Of a DNA stretch of 64,000 nt, positions 290 through 61,397 are shown one piece after another. The stretch lies in assembly GCA_028283655.1 (NCBI GenBank), contig JAPWKE010000003.1:682001-746000 (forward strand). The letters are read 5' to 3'. Position 1 is the stretch's first letter. The number at the start of each line of letters is the position of its first letter. The translations under genes and the position numbers were made by a program. The notes below the pieces were generated by a model, which saw nothing but the letters and a program-made list of their open reading frames with translations, did no database searches and had not been told where the DNA came from. The DNA comes from Acidobacteriaceae bacterium (GTDB taxonomy: Bacteria > Acidobacteriota > Terriglobia > Terriglobales > Acidobacteriaceae).

Positions 290-1867
290 ATGCCCGACCC
301 AGAACTCGTCGCCCCTGCCGCCCCTGCCTCTGAAAACTCCACCGATGTTTACGCCATTTATGGTGCTGAACCCGAAGTGCTTGCGTACGCCATGGCGAAG
401 TATTCGCGCTCGGCGCTGACGATGCGCGAGTCGCTGGCGGAGATAAGCTCGCAACGTGCAGAGCAGTTTCTGAACACCTTCTACTTTCAGTACGGCCATC
501 GCTCGATTGCTGATCTGGCGCACCTGCCGTTTGCGATTGAGCGGTTGTCGATGCTGGCGGCGATTGCGCTGGTGGATGAGTCGCGCTGGGATGGTCAGGA
601 GCGGTCGACGCGGTACCAGGACTTCCGGCGCTCGGGTTGGTACACGCCTCCGCTCGAGGGCGAGCACCGCACGGCGTATACGGCGGCGATGGGCTCGTTG
701 TTCAAGAGCTATGACGACCTCAGCCTGGGGATGCTGGAGGCGCTGAAGCGCGTGGTTCCGCGGCCGGAGGAGATGCGCGAGGAGGCGTACGTGCGTACGT
801 TGAAGGCGCGGGCGTTTGACGTGGCGCGGTATCTGCTGCCGCTGGCGACGAACACGTCGCTGGGGCAGATTGTGAACGCGCGCACGCTGGAGACGCAGGT
901 TTCCCGACTGCTTTCGAGCCGTTTGACGGAGGTTCGCGAGTTGGGGGAGAAGCTGCGTTCGGCGGCCAGCGAGCCTGCCTGGAACGTGCAGCGCGACAAG
1001 CTGGAGCAGATGGCGGGCGAGGGCGTTGTGCCGCAGGAAGCGACGCGCGAAATTCTGCAGGACCTGATGCCGTCGGTGCGGGTTGCTCCGACGCTGGTGA
1101 AGTATGCGGAGCCGAACCAGTACCAGATGGAGTCGCGGCGTGAGTTGCGGCAGGCGGCGAAGGAGTTGATGGGCGATCAGCCGATCTACGGCGCGCCGCT
1201 GGTGGATCTGCTGGACGACGATGAGGCGATGGAAGTCGAGATTGCGACCTCGCTGCTGTACCCGTACTGCCACTACTCGTACCGCCAGATTCGCGGAACG
1301 GTGGGCGCGATGGGTGAGTTGCGGCGGAACGAGATTATCAAGCTAGCGGCACGGCATCGCGGCCAGCACGATGAGCTGTTGCGTGGCTTCCAGTCGGGTG
1401 ATGGCTTCCGTTTCGACATCTTGATGGATATTGGCGGCTTCCGCGATATGCACCGGCATCGCCGGTGTGTGCAGTTGATCCAGGACTTCAGCGATCTGCA
1501 CGGATATGAGGAGCCGACGTGTCCGGGGCAGCCGACGCTGGAAGAAGCCGGGCTTGCTGAGGCGTATCACGGAGCGATGCAGGCTGCGCACCTGGCGTAC
1601 CGCGAGGCGTTGACGAGTGATTCGGCCGACGCCGAGGCGAATGCAGCGTATCTGCTGCCGATGGGTACGCGCTGTCGGGCGATGTTCAAGATGGACTTTG
1701 CCGAGGCGCTGTATATCTCGGAACTGCGGTCGGGGGTGGCGGGGCACTATAGCTACCGGCGCGTAGCGTGGGAGATGTATCGGGCGGTGGCTCGCAGGCA
1801 CCCGGCTCTGGGTGAGCTGTTTCGGATTCAGGATGTGACGGAGCCGGTGGATTTGCTGAAGCGATAA
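290..1867 (+). CDS. FAD-dependent thymidylate synthase (ThyX)-like double-domain protein
   Basis: This 525-residue protein is about twice the length of a classical ThyX (roughly 220-250 aa) and looks like two ThyX-type halves. The first half has YGHRSIADLAHLPF and ERSTRYQ, matching the HxSxLEH and SxRY parts of the ThyX signature, but the usual RHR triplet there reads DES. The second half carries RDMHRHRR, which resembles the RHR motif, and a C-terminal region (ALYISELRSG...YRRVAWEMYRA) like the ThyX end. Classical ThyX makes dTMP from dUMP using methylene-tetrahydrofolate, NADPH and FAD. Whether this split-motif form does so is uncertain. The ATG at 290 follows a weak ribosome binding site. 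Its stop overlaps the next gene by one base. Confidence 0.75.
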   Translation: MPDPELVAPAAPASENSTDVYAIYGAEPEVLAYAMAKYSRSALTMRESLAEISSQRAEQFLNTFYFQYGHRSIADLAHLPFAIERLSMLAAIALVDESRWDGQERSTRYQDFRRSGWYTPPLEGEHRTAYTAAMGSLFKSYDDLSLGMLEALKRVVPRPEEMREEAYVRTLKARAFDVARYLLPLATNTSLGQIVNARTLETQVSRLLSSRLTEVRELGEKLRSAASEPAWNVQRDKLEQMAGEGVVPQEATREILQDLMPSVRVAPTLVKYAEPNQYQMESRRELRQAAKELMGDQPIYGAPLVDLLDDDEAMEVEIATSLLYPYCHYSYRQIRGTVGAMGELRRNEIIKLAARHRGQHDELLRGFQSGDGFRFDILMDIGGFRDMHRHRRCVQLIQDFSDLHGYEEPTCPGQPTLEEAGLAEAYHGAMQAAHLAYREALTSDSADAEANAAYLLPMGTRCRAMFKMDFAEALYISELRSGVAGHYSYRRVAWEMYRAVARRHPALGELFRIQDVTEPVDLLKR

Positions 1868-48802: not shown

Positions 48803-51412
48803 ATGGCGGCGCTGCGTTGGAGCACGGCATGTCGGATCGCTACGCGCGAGATGCGTTCGTCGCGTGGCAAGTTTGCGTTCGTGGTGCTGAGTGTGGCGAT
48901 CGGTGTTGCCGCGCTCACGGGCGTGCGTGGTTTCTCTGCGAGCTTTCGTAAGGAGCTTCTGTTGCAGGCCCGCTCGATTATGGCGGCAGACTTGTCTGCC
49001 CGCGCGACGCAGCCTTTGACGGCGGAAGAGGCTGCCGGGCTGACGAAGCTGAAGAACCACAGTGCGGACGAGACTGAAGTTACCGAATTGTTGTCGATGG
49101 CGTCGAACCCCTCGTCGTTCGATCCGCTGCTGGTATCGCTCAAGGCCGTGGACCCGGCGAAGTATCCGTTCTATGGCAGCGTTACGTTTGCGCCCGCTAT
49201 GCCTTTGCGGCAGGCGTTGACGGATGATTCTGTCGCTGTGGCTGACGATCTTCTTCTACGTCTTCATCTGCATGTGGGCGATTCTGTGCGGTTGGGCGAT
49301 CGTACCTTGCGCATCGCGGCGGTCGTGCTGGAAGAGCCGGACCGGTTGAGCGGAATGTTTGCTGCGGGGCCGCGTGTGCTGCTCTCGCAACATGCGCTGG
49401 AGATGACGGAGCTGCTGGCTCCGGGCTCGCATGCGACCAGGCGATACCTCTTCAAGATGGCCCACGCGTCGGGTGGTCAGGCGGCCAGCGATGCGGCTGT
49501 GGCGACGTTGAAGGCGGAGGCGGAACAAGCTCTGCCGGAAGCTCAGGTGCAGGATTACCGCGAGGCCAGTCCCGCGGTGACGAAGGCGCTTGATGGAGCG
49601 ACGGGCCTGCTTTCGCTGATGAGTTTGGTGTCGATGGTGCTCGGCGCGGTCGGCGTCGCGATGACGATGCGCGCGCACCTTCAGCAGCGGATGGAGTCCA
49701 TCGCGATCATGAAGTCGATGGGCGCGCAGAGCGGCCAGGTGATGAAGATTTATGTGCTGCAGACGCTGCTGCTGGGGCTTGCGGGCGCGTTGATCGGCGC
49801 GTTGCTTGGTCTTGGGGTGCAGGCTGCGTTGCCACTGTTTCTTGCGAAGTTGCTGCACCTGACGCCACACTTTGCATTGGATGGACGGTCGATGGCGCTT
49901 GGCGTCGCGGCAGGTTTGTTGACGACGTTGCTCTTCACGTTGCCGCCACTGTTGGACATCCGTGGCGTGCGGCCGATTCTGATCCTGCGTCGCAATGTGG
50001 AGGCGGGAGATGATCCGTTTGTGCAGCGGATGCGCGCAAAGCTGATGGGCTCTGGGGCGCAGGTGCTGGCCTCTGTGCTGCTGCTTGCGGGGCTAGCACT
50101 GCTGGCAGCAACCGTCTCGGACTCCAGGAAGATTGGATGGATCTTCGCCGGGGGGCTTGCTGTCGTGCTGGTCGTTCTGCTGGCGATGAGTGCGGCGACG
50201 CTATGGCTGGTGCGCGTCTTCCTGCGCGGAACGAAGATGTCGCTGCCTTCGAGTATTCGACATGGACTGGCGAATCTGTATCGGCCGGGCAATCCCAGTG
50301 CGGCGCTGCTGGCTGCGCTGGGGCTGGGCATCATGGTGATGTCGACGGTATACATCGTGCAGCACGCGATCGTGCAGGAGATGCAGGTGTCCACGGCGGA
50401 AAACCTGCCGAACCTCTTCCTGATCGACATCAGCCCGAAGGAAGTGGACGGTCTGCGAGCGTTGTTGAAGACCCAGCCGACCGTGCAGGGTGAGCCGGAA
50501 CTGCTGCCGGTGGTGGGGTCGCGGTTGCTCGCGGTAGATGGCGTTGCGGCGAAGGATTTGCACTTCGAGCACATGCCGAAGCGCGCGATGCAGTCGCTGA
50601 ATCTGACGTGGGCTCCAGACGAGAACTCTCCGCCGCCGGGGGACAAGATTGTTGAAGGGAAGTGGTGGTCAGCCGGTGACGCGGCACAGGCGATGGACAA
50701 GCCGCTGGTAGCAATTGAGCTTTTGCAGGCGCACAGAATGCACCTGCATGTTGGCCAGTCGATCACCTTCGCGGCACAGGATGAAGATATGACGGCGACG
50801 GTGGCTGCTCTGTTTGAAAGCGATGGCCGTCATGCATACGGTCGCGCCGCGTTTGTGATGCCGAAGGCTTCGCTCGATGGCCTACCCGTGATCTGGTACG
50901 GCGGCGTGCACTCAAAGCCCGACCAGACGGCGCTGCTGCGACGGGTGCTGTACGAGCACTACCCGACCGTGACGGTGATCGATGTGGCGGCGACGGTGGA
51001 GATGGTGCGGCAGGTGATTCTGCAGATCACGTACGTGATTCAGTTCCTTGCCGGATTCTCGATTCTTGCGGGCCTGATCATCCTCGCCAGCGCGATTGCA
51101 GGCACGCGCTATCGTCGTACGCGAGAGGTTGTGGTGTTGAAAACTCTGGGCGGAACGCGGCGGCGGATCGCCGCAATCTTCTCGGTGGAGTTTGCGGTGC
51201 TGGGGCTGGTCGCGGGCTTTGTGGGGCTGGTGTTTGCGAATGCGTTGGCACGTTTACTGCTGCATCGTGCGCTGCATTTCGAGTATTCGTTCCAGCCCTG
51301 GATGAGTCTGGGTTTCTGGATGGCGACGGCTGCGCTTGCTGTGATCGCAGGCTGGGCGGCAAGCTTCCGCGTATTGGGACAAAAGCCGTTGGAGGTTTTG
51401 CGCGAAGAGTAG
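48803..51412 (+). CDS. FtsX-like ABC transporter permease, YbbP type
   Basis: The 869-residue protein has an N-terminal helix (FAFVVLSVAIGVAALTGVRGFS) and a large periplasmic domain. Clusters of hydrophobic helices lie in the middle and at the end, with two FtsX modules (GLLSLMSLVSMVLGAVGVAMTMRAH...; FLAGFSILAGLIILASAIAGTRYRRTREVVVLKTLGGTRRRI). The repeated K-TLG/K-SMGA motifs are typical of this class. YbbA-YbbP type systems act on the outer leaflet or periplasm, probably moving lipids or lipoproteins. Export of substrate is inferred from family, not seen. Confidence 0.87.
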   Translation: MAALRWSTACRIATREMRSSRGKFAFVVLSVAIGVAALTGVRGFSASFRKELLLQARSIMAADLSARATQPLTAEEAAGLTKLKNHSADETEVTELLSMASNPSSFDPLLVSLKAVDPAKYPFYGSVTFAPAMPLRQALTDDSVAVADDLLLRLHLHVGDSVRLGDRTLRIAAVVLEEPDRLSGMFAAGPRVLLSQHALEMTELLAPGSHATRRYLFKMAHASGGQAASDAAVATLKAEAEQALPEAQVQDYREASPAVTKALDGATGLLSLMSLVSMVLGAVGVAMTMRAHLQQRMESIAIMKSMGAQSGQVMKIYVLQTLLLGLAGALIGALLGLGVQAALPLFLAKLLHLTPHFALDGRSMALGVAAGLLTTLLFTLPPLLDIRGVRPILILRRNVEAGDDPFVQRMRAKLMGSGAQVLASVLLLAGLALLAATVSDSRKIGWIFAGGLAVVLVVLLAMSAATLWLVRVFLRGTKMSLPSSIRHGLANLYRPGNPSAALLAALGLGIMVMSTVYIVQHAIVQEMQVSTAENLPNLFLIDISPKEVDGLRALLKTQPTVQGEPELLPVVGSRLLAVDGVAAKDLHFEHMPKRAMQSLNLTWAPDENSPPPGDKIVEGKWWSAGDAAQAMDKPLVAIELLQAHRMHLHVGQSITFAAQDEDMTATVAALFESDGRHAYGRAAFVMPKASLDGLPVIWYGGVHSKPDQTALLRRVLYEHYPTVTVIDVAATVEMVRQVILQITYVIQFLAGFSILAGLIILASAIAGTRYRRTREVVVLKTLGGTRRRIAAIFSVEFAVLGLVAGFVGLVFANALARLLLHRALHFEYSFQPWMSLGFWMATAALAVIAGWAASFRVLGQKPLEVLREE

Positions 51413-51594: not shown

Positions 51595-51743
51595 TGTGTT
51601 TTACGTTGCTTCATTTCCCGGCATCTTGTTCTTCCTTCCACGTCTGCTCAAGTTTTGTGTGCAGATCTCTTTGCTGCAAAGCACCGAGCCTCTTCGTGTG
51701 CCACCACTGCGCTTAGGCGATGGTGTATTTTGAGAAGATTGAT

Positions 51744-53765
51744 ATGGCCAATGGAATAGAAGACACCAGGTCGGGGTCGCGAGAGGCCTATGCCTTTCAC
51801 CCGTTCCTCTTCTACCCCCTTTCGGGGGAGCTCCACATTCGTGGGCGTGTCATCCGCTGCCCGGTTCAGTCAGCGCGGACCCTTAGTCTTCTGCTTCGCC
51901 ATGCAGGAGAGGTTGTTACCCGGGAGCAGTTGCGTGCGGAGCTGTGGCCTGAGAATGTGGCGCTTGGATCCGATGATGCGATCAACAAAGCGGTCAGCTA
52001 TCTGAGGGATGTTCTGCGGGACAACTCTCGTTCGCCAAAGTACATTGAGACGCTACCAAAGCGGGGATACCGTTTTGTGGCTCCTCTGACGCAGGGGCCG
52101 GAGATCGCTCCTGCGGAAGTGCTCTCTACGCAGCAGAGTTCTCCTCTGGAACTGCCGACGGCTGCTTCAGTTGCGGTATCCGCTTTGGTTACGCCAGTGC
52201 TCATGCCTGTAAGGCCGGAGGGTGTGCCTGTCTCCGGGCGGAGTTTGCCGCGTATTTCACTCCTGTGGCTGGCGTTGGTTTGCCTCCTTTTCCTCTGCGC
52301 GGCGGGTGTGGGATGGTGGCACTTCCACGGTGGAGCAGGGCCGCAAAGTGATAGCGCCAAGAATCTACGCATAGGCATTGCTCCGTTTGAGGCGGAAGGG
52401 GACAACGCGGAGGGCCTGGCAGAAAGCTTTCGGCTGGATTTGACAGATGCCTTGGCGCAGATGCCGCACCTTCGCGTCAATGCAGCACATGGCACGCATG
52501 TGGACGCTGACGATCGCAAGGCGATGCTGGCGCTACAGGCGGATGTCCTGCTGTTTGGCAAACTGAGCGTGCATCAGGGGCATGTCACGCTGGAGTTGGA
52601 GCTGGCTCGCGGCAAAGATGCCACCCACCTGGCGACCTTCAAGTATGAGGTGGACCAGAAGCAGATTCTGATGTTGCGCGAGCAGGCGCAGAAGGATTTG
52701 CTGGATGCGCTCAAGTACTCGAATGCAGGGGAGGGGCCTGCGCTTGGCAGCACGGACAACGCCGAGGCCTACACGACCTTTCTGCAGGCGCGAGAGCATC
52801 TGCGGCAGTGGAACAACGATTCCTGGACGTTGGCTGCCTCTGAGTTTCGCCACACCCTTGAGATTGATCCGCACTTTGCCAGGGCGTACTCCGGGCTGGC
52901 TGCTACGTTGATCGCGATGGCAGAGCATAACTCAGTAGGCGTGGACCAGAACTACCAGCAGGCTCGAAAGATGGCGCAGAAGGCCCTCGACCTCGACCCA
53001 CAGATTGCCGAAGGCTACGCCGAACTTGGGAGCATCGCTTACCACCACGATTGGGATTTTGCCCACGCGGAGGAGCAGTACCGCCGAGCTATTGAACTGG
53101 ACCCCGCCCATAGCCAATACCATGTCTGGCTTGCTGACCTGCTTTGCGTTGAAGGTCACTATGAGGAGAGCATTCAAGAGGTGAATCTGGCACATGCGCT
53201 GGATCCGGTCTGGAAGTCCCCTTATCTTGCGGCCATGTTCATCTACTCCACGGCAGGACAGCCTGAGAGGAGCCTTGCTGTGGGCACCCAGCTTCTTGAA
53301 CGTGACCCCAGGGCAAGCCTTACCCATCTGCAGATCGGCTGGAGCTACTGGTACAACGGCCAATATACGCAGGCTGTGGAGGAGTGGCGCACGATGGCCG
53401 AACTCGACAAGGACTCCGACCGGTTGGAGCAGGAAGATATGGGAATGCGTGCTCTCCAAAGCGGCGGCATGAAAGCCTATGCGGAGCTGCGCCTCAAAGT
53501 CATCGAATCGGGCAAGCAGTGGCGGACCGGACACAACGATCTGGTTCCTTCGGAGTGGTTCGTGTACGCAGGTCAGAACGACAGTGCCATCGCAGCTCTT
53601 AACTCGCAGATCGAACGTCATGATCGGGCGGCCCTGCAGATTGCAGTGGACCCCGCCTACGCTGTTCTTCACCATGACCCCCGCTACCAGATGCTGGTGA
53701 AGAGGATGGGGCTGACTGTGCCATCTCCGCTCGGCCGACATGCCTGGCACAGCGTGTGGGAGTGA
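51744..53765 (+). CDS. CadC-like winged-helix regulator with TPR repeats
   Basis: The 673-residue protein opens with an OmpR/CadC winged helix (about residues 10-110: LHIRGRVIRCPVQSARTLSLLL..., REQLRAELWPEN, KYIETLPKRGYRFVAPL). A membrane helix follows (SLLWLALVCLLFLCAAGVGWWHF, about 172-194), then an AcsA-like/TolB-N periplasmic part (IGIAPFEAEGDNAEG...) and TPR-like repeats (DPHFARAYSGLAATLIAMAEH, DPQIAEGYAELGSIAYHH, DPAHSQYHVWLADLL). It is a paralogue in architecture of the gene at 19.1 kb. Being 290 bases upstream of two large secreted protein genes, it may regulate them. The stretch 53766-54055 holds no gene. Confidence 0.82.
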   Translation: MANGIEDTRSGSREAYAFHPFLFYPLSGELHIRGRVIRCPVQSARTLSLLLRHAGEVVTREQLRAELWPENVALGSDDAINKAVSYLRDVLRDNSRSPKYIETLPKRGYRFVAPLTQGPEIAPAEVLSTQQSSPLELPTAASVAVSALVTPVLMPVRPEGVPVSGRSLPRISLLWLALVCLLFLCAAGVGWWHFHGGAGPQSDSAKNLRIGIAPFEAEGDNAEGLAESFRLDLTDALAQMPHLRVNAAHGTHVDADDRKAMLALQADVLLFGKLSVHQGHVTLELELARGKDATHLATFKYEVDQKQILMLREQAQKDLLDALKYSNAGEGPALGSTDNAEAYTTFLQAREHLRQWNNDSWTLAASEFRHTLEIDPHFARAYSGLAATLIAMAEHNSVGVDQNYQQARKMAQKALDLDPQIAEGYAELGSIAYHHDWDFAHAEEQYRRAIELDPAHSQYHVWLADLLCVEGHYEESIQEVNLAHALDPVWKSPYLAAMFIYSTAGQPERSLAVGTQLLERDPRASLTHLQIGWSYWYNGQYTQAVEEWRTMAELDKDSDRLEQEDMGMRALQSGGMKAYAELRLKVIESGKQWRTGHNDLVPSEWFVYAGQNDSAIAALNSQIERHDRAALQIAVDPAYAVLHHDPRYQMLVKRMGLTVPSPLGRHAWHSVWE

Positions 53766-54055: not shown

Positions 54056-57000
54056 ATGAAATTGCAACTTCAATTTGGACGGTGGGCGAAACCATGCCTA
54101 CTGACAACCATGTGCTTGCTGGCCTATGGCCGTTATGGTGTCGCGGACGCGCAGGTAACCGCTTCGGGCGCGAAGCTGCGCGCTCTCAAAACAGTCCCGG
54201 CACTGGCTACGGCAGCGACCTCCTCCTCCTCGGCGGATCACTGCCTTTCGATGTCTCAGATTGCTCATCAACATGCAACGGGTGAGTTGGCGAACGGCGC
54301 TCCGGTTGTTCTATGTCATCCTGCTGCCCCCCAGTCAAAGCTGTCGACGGTTGTGAGCAAGAGCGTCGCTCCTCTGGCTCAAGGGCAGAAGATTGATCCT
54401 TCGCCGAATGCGCCTCCTCCTGGGAACACTGCGGGAGGCTTTTCGGGCTTTCTGGATGCAGCTTCGTTCCCGACACAGCCGACGGTGACAAGTGGAATCG
54501 ACACGATGGTCACGCTGTCGGCAGATTTCATGAAGCACGGCAGCAAGGACCTGTTGACGATCGACAGCAAGGCCCAACTGCATCTGCTTTCGAACAATGG
54601 GGACGGTACGTTTGCGGCTCCGGTCAATAGCAGCGGATCCGTAACCGGTTCTTACTACACCGGATATATCGATGCGGTTGTTCACGATTACGACAACGAC
54701 GGTTATCCGGATGTAATCGCGCGCGATAACTCGGACTATCGTCTGACGTTCTTCCACAACAATCACGACGGCACGTTCACGCTGGCAAAGTACATTACGC
54801 TGCCTAGCGACTACAGTACGGCTGCGCTCCTGCTTGGAGATGCGACGGGCGATGGTGTTGACGATCTCATCACGTTTATCGACACCTATAGCTACTCGAC
54901 CGGCAATACGACGACCCAGGTCCAGGTGTATGCGGGCAATAGCAGCGGTGACTTCAACACCACACCTATCGTCACGACGTATACGTTCGAAGGCGCTGAG
55001 ATTGTTATCCCGAACCGCGGTGCTCTGATCGGTACCAATGCAGGGCACAAGGCGCTTTACATTGAGGCTCTCTCGCTGAACGGTCAGGGTGTTAACGGAG
55101 CGACCGTATTTGCCCTGGGGTTGAATGGCGATGGCACGTTTCAGGGAACTCCCTATACCCAGCAGGATTTTATCTCTGCCAGTATTTATGCCAATACCAA
55201 CAACGGTGGTCTTAGCGTTGCCGATCTGAATAATGATGGCGTTCCTGATCTCACGGTGTATTTCGGAGATGGCTACATCTATACCGCTCTGGGCGCATCG
55301 GATGGAAGCTTTCCTGCAGTCGTGACGGCAAGCCCGGCCTTCTCCATCCTGCCTGAAACGGTCGTTGAGTCGGATATAAACGGCGATGGCTACCCAGACC
55401 TTATTGTGAAGGATATCGATACGCTCGAAGTACTGCCAGGCTTGGGGAACGGCAGCTTTGGTAAAGCGTCCACGTACTACACCGTCTCGAATTCGAACTC
55501 CGGCGGCACCTCCAATTCGCCCGGCTTCAATATGGTCTACGACGACTTCACCGGTGACGGAGTTCCAGACCTTCTCTACATGGACACAGGTTCGAACGGT
55601 TATAACCGTGCTGTGCTAATGGCAGGTCAGGGTGGCGGCGAGTTTCAAGGGCCCGTCGGGCTGCCTGCTGACAATCAACTGGGGTACGACCCTGGCCATC
55701 TGTACGGCGAAGCCATGTTCGATACCAATGGCGATGGTCGTGCGGATCTGATCACGCTGGATACCTATGGCCTTGGACCGTATTACCTCCGTACGGCACT
55801 CAGCAATGGCAAGGGCGGATTCAATCTGATAACAGCACTTGCCGCGACGCATGGCAGTTACACGGTAGCGAGTGTCATGGCCTCTCACGATTTCAATGGC
55901 GACGGTCTTGAGGACCTTGTGCTCGAGGCCTACACCACGCCCGCCGCATACACCTATAACTTCACGCTGGCGGTGAGTCTTTCGAAGGGCGACGGGACCT
56001 TCAGCGAGCCAGTATTTCTCGATACAAATGGCGTAACTCTGACCTCTGCGCTTAGTTCCGTGGCTGTTGGAGATATCAATGGAGACGGTATTCCGGACAT
56101 TGTTGCTGTAACGCCGGGCGGCTATTACGCAACTGCCGCGATGCTGACTTTCCTTGGGAAAAGCGACGGCACCTTCCAGCCGGCTATGTACCAAACCTAC
56201 GGCCACTCCTACGCCTATGCAGGTATTACTCTCGCTGACTTTAATGGCGATGGTAAGCTCGACCTCTTCATCTCTGACGACGGCACCCTTGGCTCTGTGC
56301 TTCCGCAGGCCTCGATCATCTTCGGTGATAACAGTGGCACCTTCGACACAACCAAGGCCGTTCCTGTCGTCAGTGGCTTGATGATTCGCAAGGCCCTCGT
56401 CGGTGATCTCAACGGCGATGGAAAGCCCGATCTAGTGCTGCTTTCTGGCGGTCAGGTAAGTGGCTATACCATCACGACGACTGACCGCAACGTCATTGTT
56501 TATCTGAACAATGGAGACGGTACTTTCACACGTAGCACTACGACGTACGAAGCTGGAGCCATTGGAGGCACCGGACATCTGGCTGACTTCAACGGCGACG
56601 GCAAGCTTGATCTGGTCTTTGCTGTCGATTATCCCTGGGACCGTGATACTGCCAGCAATGCGGGCACACAGTTGCTCCTCGGCAACGGTGATGGCACCTT
56701 CGGTACGCCGAGCAACCTGACCCTGCCGCCGAGCGTAAGCTTCCTGGCTTCGGGTGATGTGGATGGTGACGGCTCACGAGACCTGATGAGCTTCTCCTAC
56801 TACGTTGGCAGCATCGCGGTACTGCGAAACATCTCCGGCTCGGGCCTTCAGTTGACCGCGGATCAGAGCACCGTCAACACGACGCAAGGCGTCAACCTGA
56901 CGGCTACGATTACGGCATCGGTGGACCATCGTCCTACACCATTGGGAACGGTAACGTTCTCTCTGGCAGGCAACACGCTGGGGACTGGAACGCTGCAGGG

Positions 57001-57634
57001 AGGCACCGCATCGCTCTATGTCAGCGGTCTTCCAGTTGGGTCGGATAAGATCACGGCCACTTACTCAGGAGATACAAACTACAGTGCGAACCAGATCGGC
57101 GCGTCTACGGTAGTGACCGTTACAAGCGCACCCGTGACGACGCCGGACTTTTCGGTAACTGTTCCTTCTGGTGCTGTCACGCTCTCCTCTGGAGGAACGT
57201 CGAGCACCACCTTCAGCCTTACCGCAAACTCTACGTACAGTGGCCTGGTCAATCTCTCTGCGGCCAATTTGCCTAAAGACATGACCATCAGCTTCTCGTC
57301 GACGAGCGTTATGCTCTCGCCGAACGCAACGTCGACGGTAACGGCCACCATCAACACAAACGCAAAGACAGCAGCGATCAAATCCGACAAGAACTTCTTC
57401 CTTGCGGGTTCGTGCTTCTGCCTCCTTTTCTGCTTCTCTCGGCGGCGTCGATCGTTTCGGATGCTGCACGCTGTGTTTCTTCTCGGAACGCTGACGACGG
57501 TCTTTGGGCTCGCCGGTTGCGCGTCTGACAGCACGACGACGGACCGTGGCGATTACACGGTGGTTGTAACGGCGACCCCAGCGGTCACCGGAGCGACGAC
57601 CAAGGCCTTCAACGTGACAGTTCATGTGGACTGA
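54056..57634 (+). CDS. Large secreted FG-GAP/VCBS repeat protein with Ig-like domain
   Basis: The 1192-residue exported protein has many FG-GAP/VCBS repeats between about residues 180 and 930, each with calcium-type DxNxDG loops (DYDNDGYPD, DLNNDGVPD, DINGDGYPD, DFNGDGKLD, DLNGDGKPD). A Big_3 Ig-like domain (QLTADQSTVNTTQGVNL... TYSGDTNYSAN) and a shorter beta domain follow. The last 100 residues hold a hydrophobic stretch, RRRR, a second hydrophobic stretch and GCAS (Cys1155), then a beta tail. GGAGGAG precedes ATG 54056. Such proteins are propeller-like adhesins or enzymes of unknown ligand. The protease gene starts 91 bases later. Confidence 0.82.
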   Translation: MKLQLQFGRWAKPCLLTTMCLLAYGRYGVADAQVTASGAKLRALKTVPALATAATSSSSADHCLSMSQIAHQHATGELANGAPVVLCHPAAPQSKLSTVVSKSVAPLAQGQKIDPSPNAPPPGNTAGGFSGFLDAASFPTQPTVTSGIDTMVTLSADFMKHGSKDLLTIDSKAQLHLLSNNGDGTFAAPVNSSGSVTGSYYTGYIDAVVHDYDNDGYPDVIARDNSDYRLTFFHNNHDGTFTLAKYITLPSDYSTAALLLGDATGDGVDDLITFIDTYSYSTGNTTTQVQVYAGNSSGDFNTTPIVTTYTFEGAEIVIPNRGALIGTNAGHKALYIEALSLNGQGVNGATVFALGLNGDGTFQGTPYTQQDFISASIYANTNNGGLSVADLNNDGVPDLTVYFGDGYIYTALGASDGSFPAVVTASPAFSILPETVVESDINGDGYPDLIVKDIDTLEVLPGLGNGSFGKASTYYTVSNSNSGGTSNSPGFNMVYDDFTGDGVPDLLYMDTGSNGYNRAVLMAGQGGGEFQGPVGLPADNQLGYDPGHLYGEAMFDTNGDGRADLITLDTYGLGPYYLRTALSNGKGGFNLITALAATHGSYTVASVMASHDFNGDGLEDLVLEAYTTPAAYTYNFTLAVSLSKGDGTFSEPVFLDTNGVTLTSALSSVAVGDINGDGIPDIVAVTPGGYYATAAMLTFLGKSDGTFQPAMYQTYGHSYAYAGITLADFNGDGKLDLFISDDGTLGSVLPQASIIFGDNSGTFDTTKAVPVVSGLMIRKALVGDLNGDGKPDLVLLSGGQVSGYTITTTDRNVIVYLNNGDGTFTRSTTTYEAGAIGGTGHLADFNGDGKLDLVFAVDYPWDRDTASNAGTQLLLGNGDGTFGTPSNLTLPPSVSFLASGDVDGDGSRDLMSFSYYVGSIAVLRNISGSGLQLTADQSTVNTTQGVNLTATITASVDHRPTPLGTVTFSLAGNTLGTGTLQGGTASLYVSGLPVGSDKITATYSGDTNYSANQIGASTVVTVTSAPVTTPDFSVTVPSGAVTLSSGGTSSTTFSLTANSTYSGLVNLSAANLPKDMTISFSSTSVMLSPNATSTVTATINTNAKTAAIKSDKNFFLAGSCFCLLFCFSRRRRSFRMLHAVFLLGTLTTVFGLAGCASDSTTTDRGDYTVVVTATPAVTGATTKAFNVTVHVD

Positions 57635-57725
57635 TGCGGGGTTTCGCTTCATTTCATCCGGCTCAGCGAGGCTTGTTCGCAAGCTCGCTGAGGCACCTTC
57701 AGCCAAGGATCGAAAAGAAAGAGAT

Positions 57726-60700
57726 ATGAGAATGAAATCTGCAATGTCGAAATTGTTGCGCCACTCGGCAACGCTTGCGGCCCTGTCCGCAGCCACCCTG
57801 GGTACGCCCTTTCTTCGGGCTCAAGCTTCTTCCACCGCGCATCCGCGACTGTCAGGCAACGTCGTAGATTCGAAGCTCCGTAGACCTTTGAACGGAGCAA
57901 CTCCTCTACTGGCGCGACAGGCTGTCGACAAGGGAAGCCTGGCTGCATCAGAACCGTTGAATGATATGAAGCTCGTGCTGCGTCGATCGTCAGACGCCCA
58001 GGCTGCATTAAATAGCTATCTCGACGATGTGCAAAACGCTGCGTCGCCAAACTTTCACAAGTGGCTTACACCGGAGCAGTTTGGAGAGCGCTTTGGCGCC
58101 AGCGATGCAGATATCGCCGCCGTCTCGCAGTGGCTGGAGGGAAATGGAATTTCAATTTCCTCCATCTCGAAGAGCCGCACGGTAATTACCTTCTCGTCGA
58201 CAGAAGCGCAGTTCGAGCACACGTTTGGCGCGCAGATGCACCACTATGACTTGCACGGCGAAGCACGAGTTGCTAACAGTGCCGTTCCGTCGGTGCCGTC
58301 GGCGTTGTCTCCCGCAATTGTAGGGATCGCAACGCTTGGCAATGCGACGTTCCGTCCTTTGCACACGAAGCCGACCCTGGCGAAGTTCACTGCAAACAGT
58401 GGATGGGCGAAGAGTGGCGCGGTGAAGAGTTCTGCACAGGATGTGCAGGGCACAACACCGCAGTTCACCAGCAATATTTCGGGCGCAAACTACCCGCTCG
58501 TTGGGCCCGCGGATTTTGGCTTGATCTATGGGGTCAACACACTCTGGAATAGTGGCGTTACCGGGACAGGGCAGTCAATTGCAATCGTCGCGGAGAGTGA
58601 CGTTGCCCAGAGCGACGTCGATGCGTTCCGTAAGGCTTTTGGTCTGCCAGCAACAACGGTGAGCCAGATCGTCCTTGGGGCCGACCCTGGTCTGGACGCA
58701 TCCAGCGGCGCAGAAGGTGAGGCGGTACTCGACGTAGAGTGGGCGGGTGCTATGGCACCGGCTGCAACGGTCAACCTTCTCATTGCTGAATCCAATGCGA
58801 CGCAGACGGGAATCCTTGTCGCTGCAGAGTATGCCATCGATCACAATTTAAGTCCGGTGATGGACGTAAGCTGGGGCGCTTGTGAGTTGGGTCTGGGGGC
58901 CTCCGGCAATCAGTACTTCGACGACCTGTGGTCGCAGGCTGCAGCGCAGGGAATCAGCGTCATGGTTGCCAGCGGTGATGCCGGCTCGGTGGGTTGCGAT
59001 CAGAATGAGTATTACTCGGACTATGGCCAGCAGGTAAATGGTATGGCTTCGACGCAATACAACACCGCTGTTGGCGGAACCGACTTCTATGGCAATGCCG
59101 ATGGCGCAAACAGTTACTGGACGCTTGCGAATGATCCCACTACGTTGCAGTCGGCGAAGTCCTATGTTCCTGAATCCGCATGGAACGATAGCTGCGTGAG
59201 CCCCCTTCTCCTGGCGCACGCTGCTGACTTCGGTTTGACCGAAACTACCTCAGGAGCGATCTGCGACAACGAATACGCATTCCTGGATACAACGGGTGGT
59301 GGAGGAGGTGTTAGCCAGTGCACGAGTTCGGACCAGTCAACCCAGGGATCATGCACTGGTGGCCATCCCGCGCCGGTATGGCAGCAAAGCGTAAGTAGCA
59401 TTGGGGCCACCGGCAAGCGTCACCTTCCAGACGTTTCTTTCTTTGCTGGTGCAGGTCTATGGGGTTCTGCCTACGCATTCTGTGAGGCAGATGAGGCAAC
59501 CTCGGACATGTGTGTCAACAATAGTGGCACCATGACTACACTGAGCGCAGGTGGAACCAGTTTTGCCTCGCCAGCGTTCGCAGGTATTGTTGCTCTCTTG
59601 AATCAGCAGCAAGGGGCTCGACAGGGCAACATCAACAAGTACCTCTATGCTTTGGCTGCCAAGCAGTTTGCTAATCCGACTCTGGCTGCAAACTGTCAGT
59701 CAGGTGCAGGAGCGGATACAAGCGGCTGCATCTTCCATGACGTTGTGGATGGAACAATCAGCGAACCCTGTGCCGTGGGCATCATCGTTGATCCGAGCAC
59801 AGGTGCGCTCTGCATCACGATCGATTCTTACAACTATGTCGGTGCGACACCGGGGTACGCTGCAACCGCTGGTTACGATATGGCTACCGGGCTTGGTTCG
59901 CTCAACGCTGGCCTGCTCGCTTCTAATTGGGCCTCCGTTACATCGAACGATGGAGCTACGCTGACATCGCATACGATCTCTGGACCAACCAGCATCGTCT
60001 ACGGAACAGCCACGCCCTCTTCGATTACGGTGAAGGCTTCAACCGGAACGAGTACGCCGAGTGGAACAGTTGCCATGCTCTCTACGGAAAGCGATGGCTC
60101 CACGCTGGCGATTGCTTCTGGCGTGCTCAGCAATGGCACGGCACAGGTAAGCTTCGACACATTGACGCCTGGATCGCACCAACTCTATGCGTCTTATGGT
60201 GGCGATGCTTCCTTCGGAGCTAGCTCCTCACAACCAACGTCGTTCGTTGTCGCAAAGGCTGCTACAACGATGACCGCAATCGCAAGCGCAGTAACGGTGC
60301 AAGCTCAGCACAGCTCCACCATAGTGGTGAAGGTACAGGCAAGCAGCCTGGCGCTCAACCCGACTGGAGCGATTGTGTTCACAAACCAGACCACAGGCAA
60401 ACTACTTGGTTCCACTGCCTTGTCGGCGCTGTTGGACACCAGCAGCGGCAACTCCTGGGCTCAGGCTTCGTTCCTTGTGCAGGATTCGATGCTGGCGGGT
60501 GGGAACAACGTGATCGTGGCTTCGTATGTGGGCGACTCCAACTATCTGTCTGCGAGCAGCCAGACGGTGAACGTGGCGTTCGTGCCTTTCTACGTAGTCA
60601 CGACGAGCGCGCCGTCGATTGATATCGCACTCAGCGATACCTCTCACGGTTCGGTCACGATCACGGTTGCGTCAAGCACGGGCGCGGCGGTCAATCCTGC

Positions 60701-61397
60701 CGTTCTTTCGCTCTCCTGCCCGGCAATCACCATCGGTGGCATAAGCTGCCAGTTTACAAATCCGGTGCAGAACGCTGACGGATCGATGTCCTACACCTTG
60801 ACGTTGACTGCTAACAACCTTCACAGCGCAGTCGTCAAAAACACTCTGCCGTTGCAAGATCAGCACGGACCAGGGAAGGAAATTTCCATGGCACTCCTGA
60901 CAGGTATGGCTCTCTTTCTGGGGCGGCGTAAGCGGTGGGCCCGCACTCGTTCTCTCGCAAGCATGGCGGTGCTTCTGCTTGGCATCGCAACGTTGAGCGG
61001 ATGCGCTGGCTCTCAGGCGGCGAGCACTTCGCCTGCTGTAACCAATCAGTTGTCGGTCTCTGCAACAAAAATTGGCTTTGGTAGCAGCCTGACGATGACT
61101 GCAACGCTTGTCCCGGTTTCCAACTCTGGAGCGCCGAGTGGAACGGTTCTGTTTTACGACGGAGCAACACCTCTTGGCTCTGCTCCAGTGGTTGGCGGAA
61201 AGGCATCGCTGACTGTGTCAACTCTTTCGATCGGAACGCACACACTGACCGGAAGCTACAGTGGCGACTCGACGTTTATGCCCTCAGCCTCATCCGCAAA
61301 TACGGTGAGTGTCAGCCTTGCGACCTCGCTGGGAGTGCAGGTACTCGATTCGTCCGGCAATGTGGCGACTCTGGCATTGCCGATCACGATTCACTAG
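57726..61397 (+). CDS. S53 (sedolisin/pro-kumamolisin) serine protease with Ig-like domains
   Basis: The 1223-residue secreted protease has a signal peptide (about 1-38), a pro-kumamolisin activation domain (about 75-215, SPNFHKWLTPEQFGERFGASDADI) and an S53 catalytic domain (about 255-740). In it ExxxD is Glu332/Asp336 (EGEAVLDVEW), the oxyanion Asp lies in VMDVSWGACE, and the nucleophile is Ser612 in GGTSFASPAFAG. A calcium-type tail (HDVVDGT) follows. Ig-like repeats then lead to the C-terminal hydrophobic-RRKRWARTR-hydrophobic-GCAG module (Cys1093) and one more Ig-like domain. Such enzymes act at acidic pH. ATG 57726 is chosen for the signal peptide. Confidence 0.88.
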   Translation: MRMKSAMSKLLRHSATLAALSAATLGTPFLRAQASSTAHPRLSGNVVDSKLRRPLNGATPLLARQAVDKGSLAASEPLNDMKLVLRRSSDAQAALNSYLDDVQNAASPNFHKWLTPEQFGERFGASDADIAAVSQWLEGNGISISSISKSRTVITFSSTEAQFEHTFGAQMHHYDLHGEARVANSAVPSVPSALSPAIVGIATLGNATFRPLHTKPTLAKFTANSGWAKSGAVKSSAQDVQGTTPQFTSNISGANYPLVGPADFGLIYGVNTLWNSGVTGTGQSIAIVAESDVAQSDVDAFRKAFGLPATTVSQIVLGADPGLDASSGAEGEAVLDVEWAGAMAPAATVNLLIAESNATQTGILVAAEYAIDHNLSPVMDVSWGACELGLGASGNQYFDDLWSQAAAQGISVMVASGDAGSVGCDQNEYYSDYGQQVNGMASTQYNTAVGGTDFYGNADGANSYWTLANDPTTLQSAKSYVPESAWNDSCVSPLLLAHAADFGLTETTSGAICDNEYAFLDTTGGGGGVSQCTSSDQSTQGSCTGGHPAPVWQQSVSSIGATGKRHLPDVSFFAGAGLWGSAYAFCEADEATSDMCVNNSGTMTTLSAGGTSFASPAFAGIVALLNQQQGARQGNINKYLYALAAKQFANPTLAANCQSGAGADTSGCIFHDVVDGTISEPCAVGIIVDPSTGALCITIDSYNYVGATPGYAATAGYDMATGLGSLNAGLLASNWASVTSNDGATLTSHTISGPTSIVYGTATPSSITVKASTGTSTPSGTVAMLSTESDGSTLAIASGVLSNGTAQVSFDTLTPGSHQLYASYGGDASFGASSSQPTSFVVAKAATTMTAIASAVTVQAQHSSTIVVKVQASSLALNPTGAIVFTNQTTGKLLGSTALSALLDTSSGNSWAQASFLVQDSMLAGGNNVIVASYVGDSNYLSASSQTVNVAFVPFYVVTTSAPSIDIALSDTSHGSVTITVASSTGAAVNPAVLSLSCPAITIGGISCQFTNPVQNADGSMSYTLTLTANNLHSAVVKNTLPLQDQHGPGKEISMALLTGMALFLGRRKRWARTRSLASMAVLLLGIATLSGCAGSQAASTSPAVTNQLSVSATKIGFGSSLTMTATLVPVSNSGAPSGTVLFYDGATPLGSAPVVGGKASLTVSTLSIGTHTLTGSYSGDSTFMPSASSANTVSVSLATSLGVQVLDSSGNVATLALPITIH

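Follow-up and report, generated by a model that had tools for sequence, protein, structure and literature searches.

The window, a 64,000-nucleotide stretch of an Acidobacteriaceae genome, carries two neighbouring forward-strand genes for secreted giants, an FG-GAP repeat protein and an S53 (pro-kumamolisin) protease (Table 1). Pfam recognizes FG-GAP repeats and one Big_3_5 domain in the former, and Pro-kuma_activ plus three Big_3_5 stretches in the latter. ATG 57624, from which the S53 frame is open, overlaps the FG-GAP stop codon; ATG 57726 is the likely start, because a signal peptide follows there. Near their C-termini both proteins carry the shared module to which a preliminary description had drawn attention: a hydrophobic segment (TM1), an Arg-rich loop beginning with RRRR or RRKR, a second hydrophobic segment (TM2) and the residues GC. 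As also described, the module does not lie at the extreme C-terminus: 37 residues follow the Cys of the FG-GAP protein and 130 follow that of the S53 protein. The beta domain that was said to come next is real in the S53 protein, where the 130 residues form a whole Big_3_5 domain and then a short stretch, whereas the FG-GAP protein has two predicted strands there and no domain of their own.

The frame upstream of the FG-GAP gene (51720-53765, +; 681 residues) appears by eye to encode a winged-helix regulator that has TPR-like repeats and a TM segment. Before it, 48803-51412 (+) encodes an FtsX-like duplicated permease of 869 residues that presumably resembles the acidobacterial duplicated orphan permease family.

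Table 1. Features of the two genes, in positions of the window
Feature	Positions	Strand	Details
FG-GAP repeat giant with module	54056..57634	+	1192 aa
First part of interrupted Ig-like domain, FG-GAP protein	57173..57379	+	Profile A3 positions 2-70 (G000:C3:739173-739379), 65.4 bits; predicted structure
TM1, FG-GAP protein	57389..57439	+	
Arg-rich loop RRRRSFRM, FG-GAP protein	57440..57463	+	
TM2 and lipobox LAGC, FG-GAP protein	57464..57520	+	Cys1155 codon 57518-57520
Tail, FG-GAP protein: predicted closing strand pair of the interrupted Ig-like domain	57545..57631	+	Model strands 140-150 and 158-166; structure comparison
S53 (pro-kumamolisin) protease giant	57726..61397 (stop ends 61397)	+	1223 aa; frame open from ATG 57624
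First part of interrupted Ig-like domain, S53 protein	60609..60842 (ends approximate)	+	A1 profile match
TM1, S53 protein	60882..60923	+	
Arg-rich loop RRKRWARTR, S53 protein	60924..60950	+	
TM2 and lipobox LSGC, S53 protein	60951..61004	+	Cys1093 codon 61002-61004
Big_3_5 domain between Cys and C-terminal end, S53 protein	61050..61313	+	Pfam, residues 1114-1201 of the frame from 57711
Proposed final strand pair, S53 protein	61323..61394	+	Alignment with L222; tail profile against

The module recurs throughout its own genome

A search of its own genome with the C-terminal 167 residues of the FG-GAP protein (E up to 10) matched 22 places, 20 of them with hairpin and Cys; the remaining two were an uninterrupted domain (L021) and an unrelated sequence (L022). 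Profile A1, built from 19 of these sequences and omitting L019 and the S53 protein, found 35 places at E < 1e-9 and still recovered the S53 protein (1.4e-10). All 35 proteins have [GA]C after TM2. As picked, their frames sum to 39,883 residues, or ~120 kb of the 4.27 Mb genome, with script-selected start codons that are incorrect or questionable for at least six (L082, L083, L084, L099, L103 and L116). In an alignment of 34 of these proteins (A5, which omits L084) the module Cys is the sole invariant column of 3703, a descriptive result rather than a test given that the set was selected by profile.

Among the same 34 proteins, Big_3_5 domains occur in 27, NHL repeats in 12, the S53 pro-domain in 6, FG-GAP repeats in 4 and glycosyl hydrolase family 28 in 2. 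The module of L084 (G000:C3:3017828-3018307, -) sits in a 224-codon frame beside a 1600-codon frame on the same strand, perhaps as the result of a frameshift or a split gene.

The hairpin interrupts the last Ig-like domain

The hairpin is inserted inside the last Ig-like domain of these proteins, a domain that is continuous elsewhere. The hairpin-free profile A3 (26 of 51 rows, 97 positions) matches uninterrupted domains end to end (1-97). Among the matches listed for 46 genomes of the family, two kinds appear: full-length ones of ~270 bases, three of which stand in a row at G394:C8:528212-529087, and partial ones that stop at positions 64-76, where the hairpin starts. In loci L117-L148 a script tallied 35 full copies alongside 22 partial ones that carry a hairpin, and the tail, where found, resumes at A3 position 64-68. 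Some of these loci, for example L122, L134, L137 and L139, have several full copies, the interrupted copy being last. A search for intact copies in the bodies of the 35 own-genome module proteins gave one clear case, L097, with a full copy near the N-terminus (47 bits, 3.9e-15) and an interrupted copy at the end; L083 has a marginal intact copy (0.0072). A control profile with its halves swapped found four weaker domains, two of which are the two halves of L097 matched apart.

A structure predicted for the C-terminus of the FG-GAP protein from three sequences (mean pLDDT 74.3) has seven strands, helices at 88-103 and 112-126, and strands at 140-150 and 158-166; its later blocks reach 85-90, and the helices and the Cys region lie at a low ~44-61. 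With the low-confidence stretches left out, model residues 6..167 align with 594..700 of 8jmw_A (Z 12.3, rmsd 2.1, 103 residues) and residues 5..167 with 404..502 of 2ber (Z 11.7, rmsd 1.9, 98 residues), a sialidase domain that we take to be of the NEW3 kind. Both known structures are continuous in the aligned range, and the tail is therefore predicted to close the sandwich opened before TM1. The fold is placed by structure comparison only: PF10633 (NPCBM_assoc, NEW3) matches just 2 of the 19 A1 members (best E 0.0011), with the inserted hairpin lowering sequence scores, no Pfam family exceeds its cut-off for the domain, and a sequence search of solved structures returned nothing beyond E values of 0.014, 0.031 and 0.089. 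For annotation, the correction would be that the tail belongs to the domain that starts before the hairpin.

Alignment A2, which omits L019, L051 and seven near-duplicates, shows a pair of Cys columns, 35 and 59 (45/51 and 46/51 sequences), in the first half of the domain; they probably form a disulfide, and both are missing from the FG-GAP protein of the window.

The S53 protein has a variant order that it shares with L222 and L224: half-domain, hairpin, Cys, a whole Big_3_5-like domain and a short end. A tail profile recognizes the end of L224 clearly (0/500 shuffles as good) and that of L222 marginally (8/500), and it does not recognize the S53 tail of the window (0.4 bits; 276/500 shuffles as good). 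The final strand pair proposed for the latter therefore rests on its alignment with L222 (query 2-252, 37% identity, 8.6e-25). A further long form is L019, which represents the same gene as L051 and has a tail of 137 residues. A structure predicted for the S53 protein from its sequence without relatives was of low quality (mean pLDDT 47.5) and was set aside.

The Cys lies in a lipobox context

Because circularity was to be avoided, we also sought half-domains followed by a hairpin with no Cys required. This Cys-blind finder returned 117 distinct hairpins, including four pairs at least 90% alike, and most of the loci had been fetched with profiles that include the Cys column. It recovered 28 of the 35 own-genome modules and missed the S53 module. 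In 116 of the 117, [GSA]C follows the hydrophobic part of TM2; the one left out of the 116 is L152 (see below). The residue at -3 is Leu in 51 of these modules, Ile in 16, Met in 14, Thr in 8, Val in 8, Phe in 7 and Ala in 6; at -2 it is Ser in 44, Thr in 30, Ala in 16 and Val in 8; and at -1 it is Gly in 100, Ser in 8 and Ala in 8. After the Cys comes Gly in 72, Ser in 29, Ala in 6 and Asp in one, within a Gly/Ser-rich stretch, and the tail has a median length of 40.5 residues and a maximum of 53. Of the 5094 other hairpin residues, 86 are Cys. The loops contain 441 Arg and 91 Lys in all, and 112 of the 117 lack an acidic residue. In the 30 loci fetched with the hairpin-free profile (L119-L148), Cys is present in 22/22 interrupted copies read, 20 tagged by script and two (L130 and L147) by eye.

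Lipoprotein signals at N-termini encoded in this genome include ISILALSGC and LSLLALTGC, and TM2 resembles them; in the window LAGC and LSGC likewise place a lipobox Cys after a basic and a hydrophobic stretch. The position is not that of an N-terminal signal: the Cys are residue 1155 of 1192 and residue 1093 of 1223.

The preliminary description likened the pattern to a C-terminal sorting signal fused to an internal lipobox. The lipobox half of that comparison stands. The sorting-signal half is not supported: the module lacks a basic C-terminal end, and the 115 modules compared show no strong signature motif before TM1. A weak, non-random excess of A[AS][LIFM] is seen there (34/115; shuffle mean 16.9, highest of 300 shuffles 27). 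A positive-inside TM hairpin placed within one Ig-like domain is the more fitting description of the module.

Distribution

The preliminary description had suggested a search in other acidobacterial secreted proteins, and the module proved widespread in related secreted proteins; rarity outside the two genes, which would have counted against it, is contradicted by the counts in its own genome and family. At 0.001, A1 matches 126/396 genomes of the phylum, including 44/44 sampled Acidobacteriaceae, and no genome of the family is among the non-matching genomes listed, which are ordered by kinship; nine candidates per genome were scored, making per-genome copy numbers lower bounds. The hairpin-free profile matches 45/46 family genomes, with G414 as the sole exception. 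A copy is also found in an S53 protease (WP_013572891.1) of Granulicella tundricola plasmid pACIX901.

Outside the family we checked 30 loci of limited length from 25 chosen genomes. At 27 of them there is at least one uninterrupted domain copy and the finder detected no hairpin; most matches outside the family are therefore not the module. The other three have a hairpin, canonical in L149 and L150, which come from one family, and not in L152. The scan of viral contigs found no relative, and a single scan of genome contigs gave two loci.

Two of the outlying loci deserve separate mention. In L152 (G229:C115, family f47) the hairpin occupies the same position in the domain, there is no canonical lipobox, and another domain follows, so that the interrupted one is not last; it is possibly a precursor or a decayed form of the module. 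L117 lies on a contig labelled Verrucomicrobia (CAJCIP010000097.1) that is possibly mis-binned, and its module is 53% identical to a copy from the genome of the window.

A possible internal lipoprotein signal

We lean towards reading the module as an internal lipoprotein signal, carried on a TM hairpin in the last Ig-like domain of Sec-exported giants and processed at TM2 by Lgt and LspA. The lipid anchor would then probably be placed near the tail end of these giants instead of the front end. The positive-inside rule sets the topology of such a hairpin: TM1 would stop transfer, the Arg-rich loop would stay in the cytoplasm and TM2 would return the chain outward. With its LxGC, TM2 could be read as an ordinary lipoprotein signal peptide, Lgt lipidating the Cys and LspA cutting before it. 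The tail, as the last two strands of the sandwich, would remain non-covalently bound to the giant and give it a lipid anchor near the C-terminus. Since the chain would be cut inside a folded domain, the lipidated strands must then be retained through strand pairing if the anchor is to persist.

Both enzymes are present. LspA matches in 97 of 99 genomes, with one or two copies in nearly all those outside the family and a single match in each of nine family genomes (9/9), and Lgt has 1-4 copies in family genomes. With regard to the co-occurring protease or transferase that the preliminary description suggested testing for, these counts show no expansion of LspA. A dedicated lipoprotein peptidase was likewise considered and set aside, there being no sign of co-expansion of LspA and Lgt in the weak, one-family profiling of these nine genomes; another protease family may supply a dedicated enzyme for TM1. 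By simple patterns, 19 of the 35 module proteins, several of which have uncertain start codons, carry a signal peptidase I site of the xAQ type close to the N-terminus, and five have a lipobox-like string there, L112 most plausibly; judged from these strings, the five may be lipidated N-terminally. To our knowledge lipoprotein signals are N-terminal, and our literature search turned up no description of LspA cleavage at an internal hairpin. If LspA does act on the module, lipoprotein processing is not limited to N-termini, and housekeeping enzymes would suffice to lipidate a giant close to its C-terminal end; the retention on the cell of dozens of propellers, acid proteases and pectinases in soil acidobacteria would also be explained, and a simple design for lipid attachment via a split Ig domain would suggest itself.

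If TM1 and TM2 were retained, the protein would stay at the inner membrane, a poor fit for acid proteases, and the weak motif excess before TM1 could reflect another enzyme. A tentative and rather doubtful extension is complete removal of the hairpin, with LspA cleaving at the Cys and a second protease near TM1. The short lipidated strand pair of a two-chain Ig-like domain would then reach the outer membrane by the ordinary lipoprotein route and clasp the giant there. If true, one bacterial family has converted the final Ig domain in dozens of its secreted proteins to a lipid clasp that can be reused.

Somewhat unlikely, in our judgment, is an uncut hairpin in the inner membrane, with TM1 and TM2 tethering the last Ig-like domain and the Cys lipidated or not. 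The topology alone would suffice for this, TM1 has no strong cleavage motif, and the modelled fold closes with the hairpin in place; however, an invariant Cys in a full lipobox context would be left without a reason, and a periplasmic leash would be odd for cargo such as acid proteases and pectinases. We consider it improbable that the module is a C-terminal sorting signal, where a sortase-like enzyme (CPBP, rhomboid or exosortase type) would cleave at TM1 and link the giant to some other partner, with TM2 and the tail as the leaving group. A TM segment followed by an Arg cluster does resemble MYXO-CTERM-like signals, which are cut by a CPBP protease (PMC11980579), and the weak motif excess before TM1 agrees with such a cut, but a leaving group needs neither an invariant lipobox Cys nor strands that complete a domain. 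Finally, hydrophobic-Arg-hydrophobic strings are cheap in sequence and the two neighbours are otherwise unlike, yet a chance resemblance or frame artefact is refuted by the 35 own-genome copies, the full set of sampled family genomes, the fixed insertion point and the conserved Cys.

Comparison with known systems

The module region is already covered, as a putative anchoring domain, by NCBIfam model NF058595 ('invert_tail', lipo-invert putative C-terminal anchoring domain), which matches 17 of the 19 A1 members (best E 4e-19). It aligns over 2-112 of its 113 positions with the FG-GAP protein (1.4e-7) and over 4-109 with the S53 protein (1.5e-4), whose form differs by the extra domain after the Cys. 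Neither reaches the curated cut-off of 37 bits (31.9-32.8 and 22.0-25.1, respectively), which other own-genome copies pass. Across 99 genomes the cut-off is exceeded in ten, nine family members and G066; five of 14 control genomes match weakly at 0.001, and none of them exceeds it. In the open literature searched, part of it judged by title, we found no paper that uses the name 'invert_tail' and none that fits an internal lipobox of this kind. Beyond NF058595, the present analysis contributes the finding that the domain is interrupted, the counts, a test blind to Cys and the S53 form with its extra domain after the Cys.

With the lipoprotein signal peptides of the Lgt, LspA, Lnt and Lol route the module has in common a basic n-region, a hydrophobic stretch, a [GSA]C lipobox and a stretch rich in Gly and Ser after the Cys. 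It differs in its internal position, where TM2 forms the second half of a hairpin ~40 residues before the C-terminus, and its carrier proteins also have an N-terminal export signal. For the proposed two-chain state, GAIN domains offer an analogy only: they are cut before their last strand, which remains held in the domain non-covalently, but the cut is autoproteolytic and the strand is not lipid-linked.

PEP-CTERM, LPXTG and MYXO-CTERM signals place a helix and a basic cluster at the extreme C-terminus, whereas 37 or 130 residues follow the module Cys in the window. MYXO-CTERM with its myxosortase is the nearest studied system, and the paper itself draws the comparison with Lgt and LspA (PMC11980579). 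Exported proteins with MYXO-CTERM (PMC11980579) and those with the module alike have, close to the C-terminus, an invariant Cys, a TM helix and an Arg-rich stretch on the cytoplasmic side, and both signals occur in dozens of copies per genome. In MYXO-CTERM, according to that paper, the Cys precedes the helix, the Arg cluster is terminal, there is no defined lipobox and the topology is inverted (PMC11980579); the module runs helix, Arg, helix, Cys and strands, and its predicted topology is the opposite.
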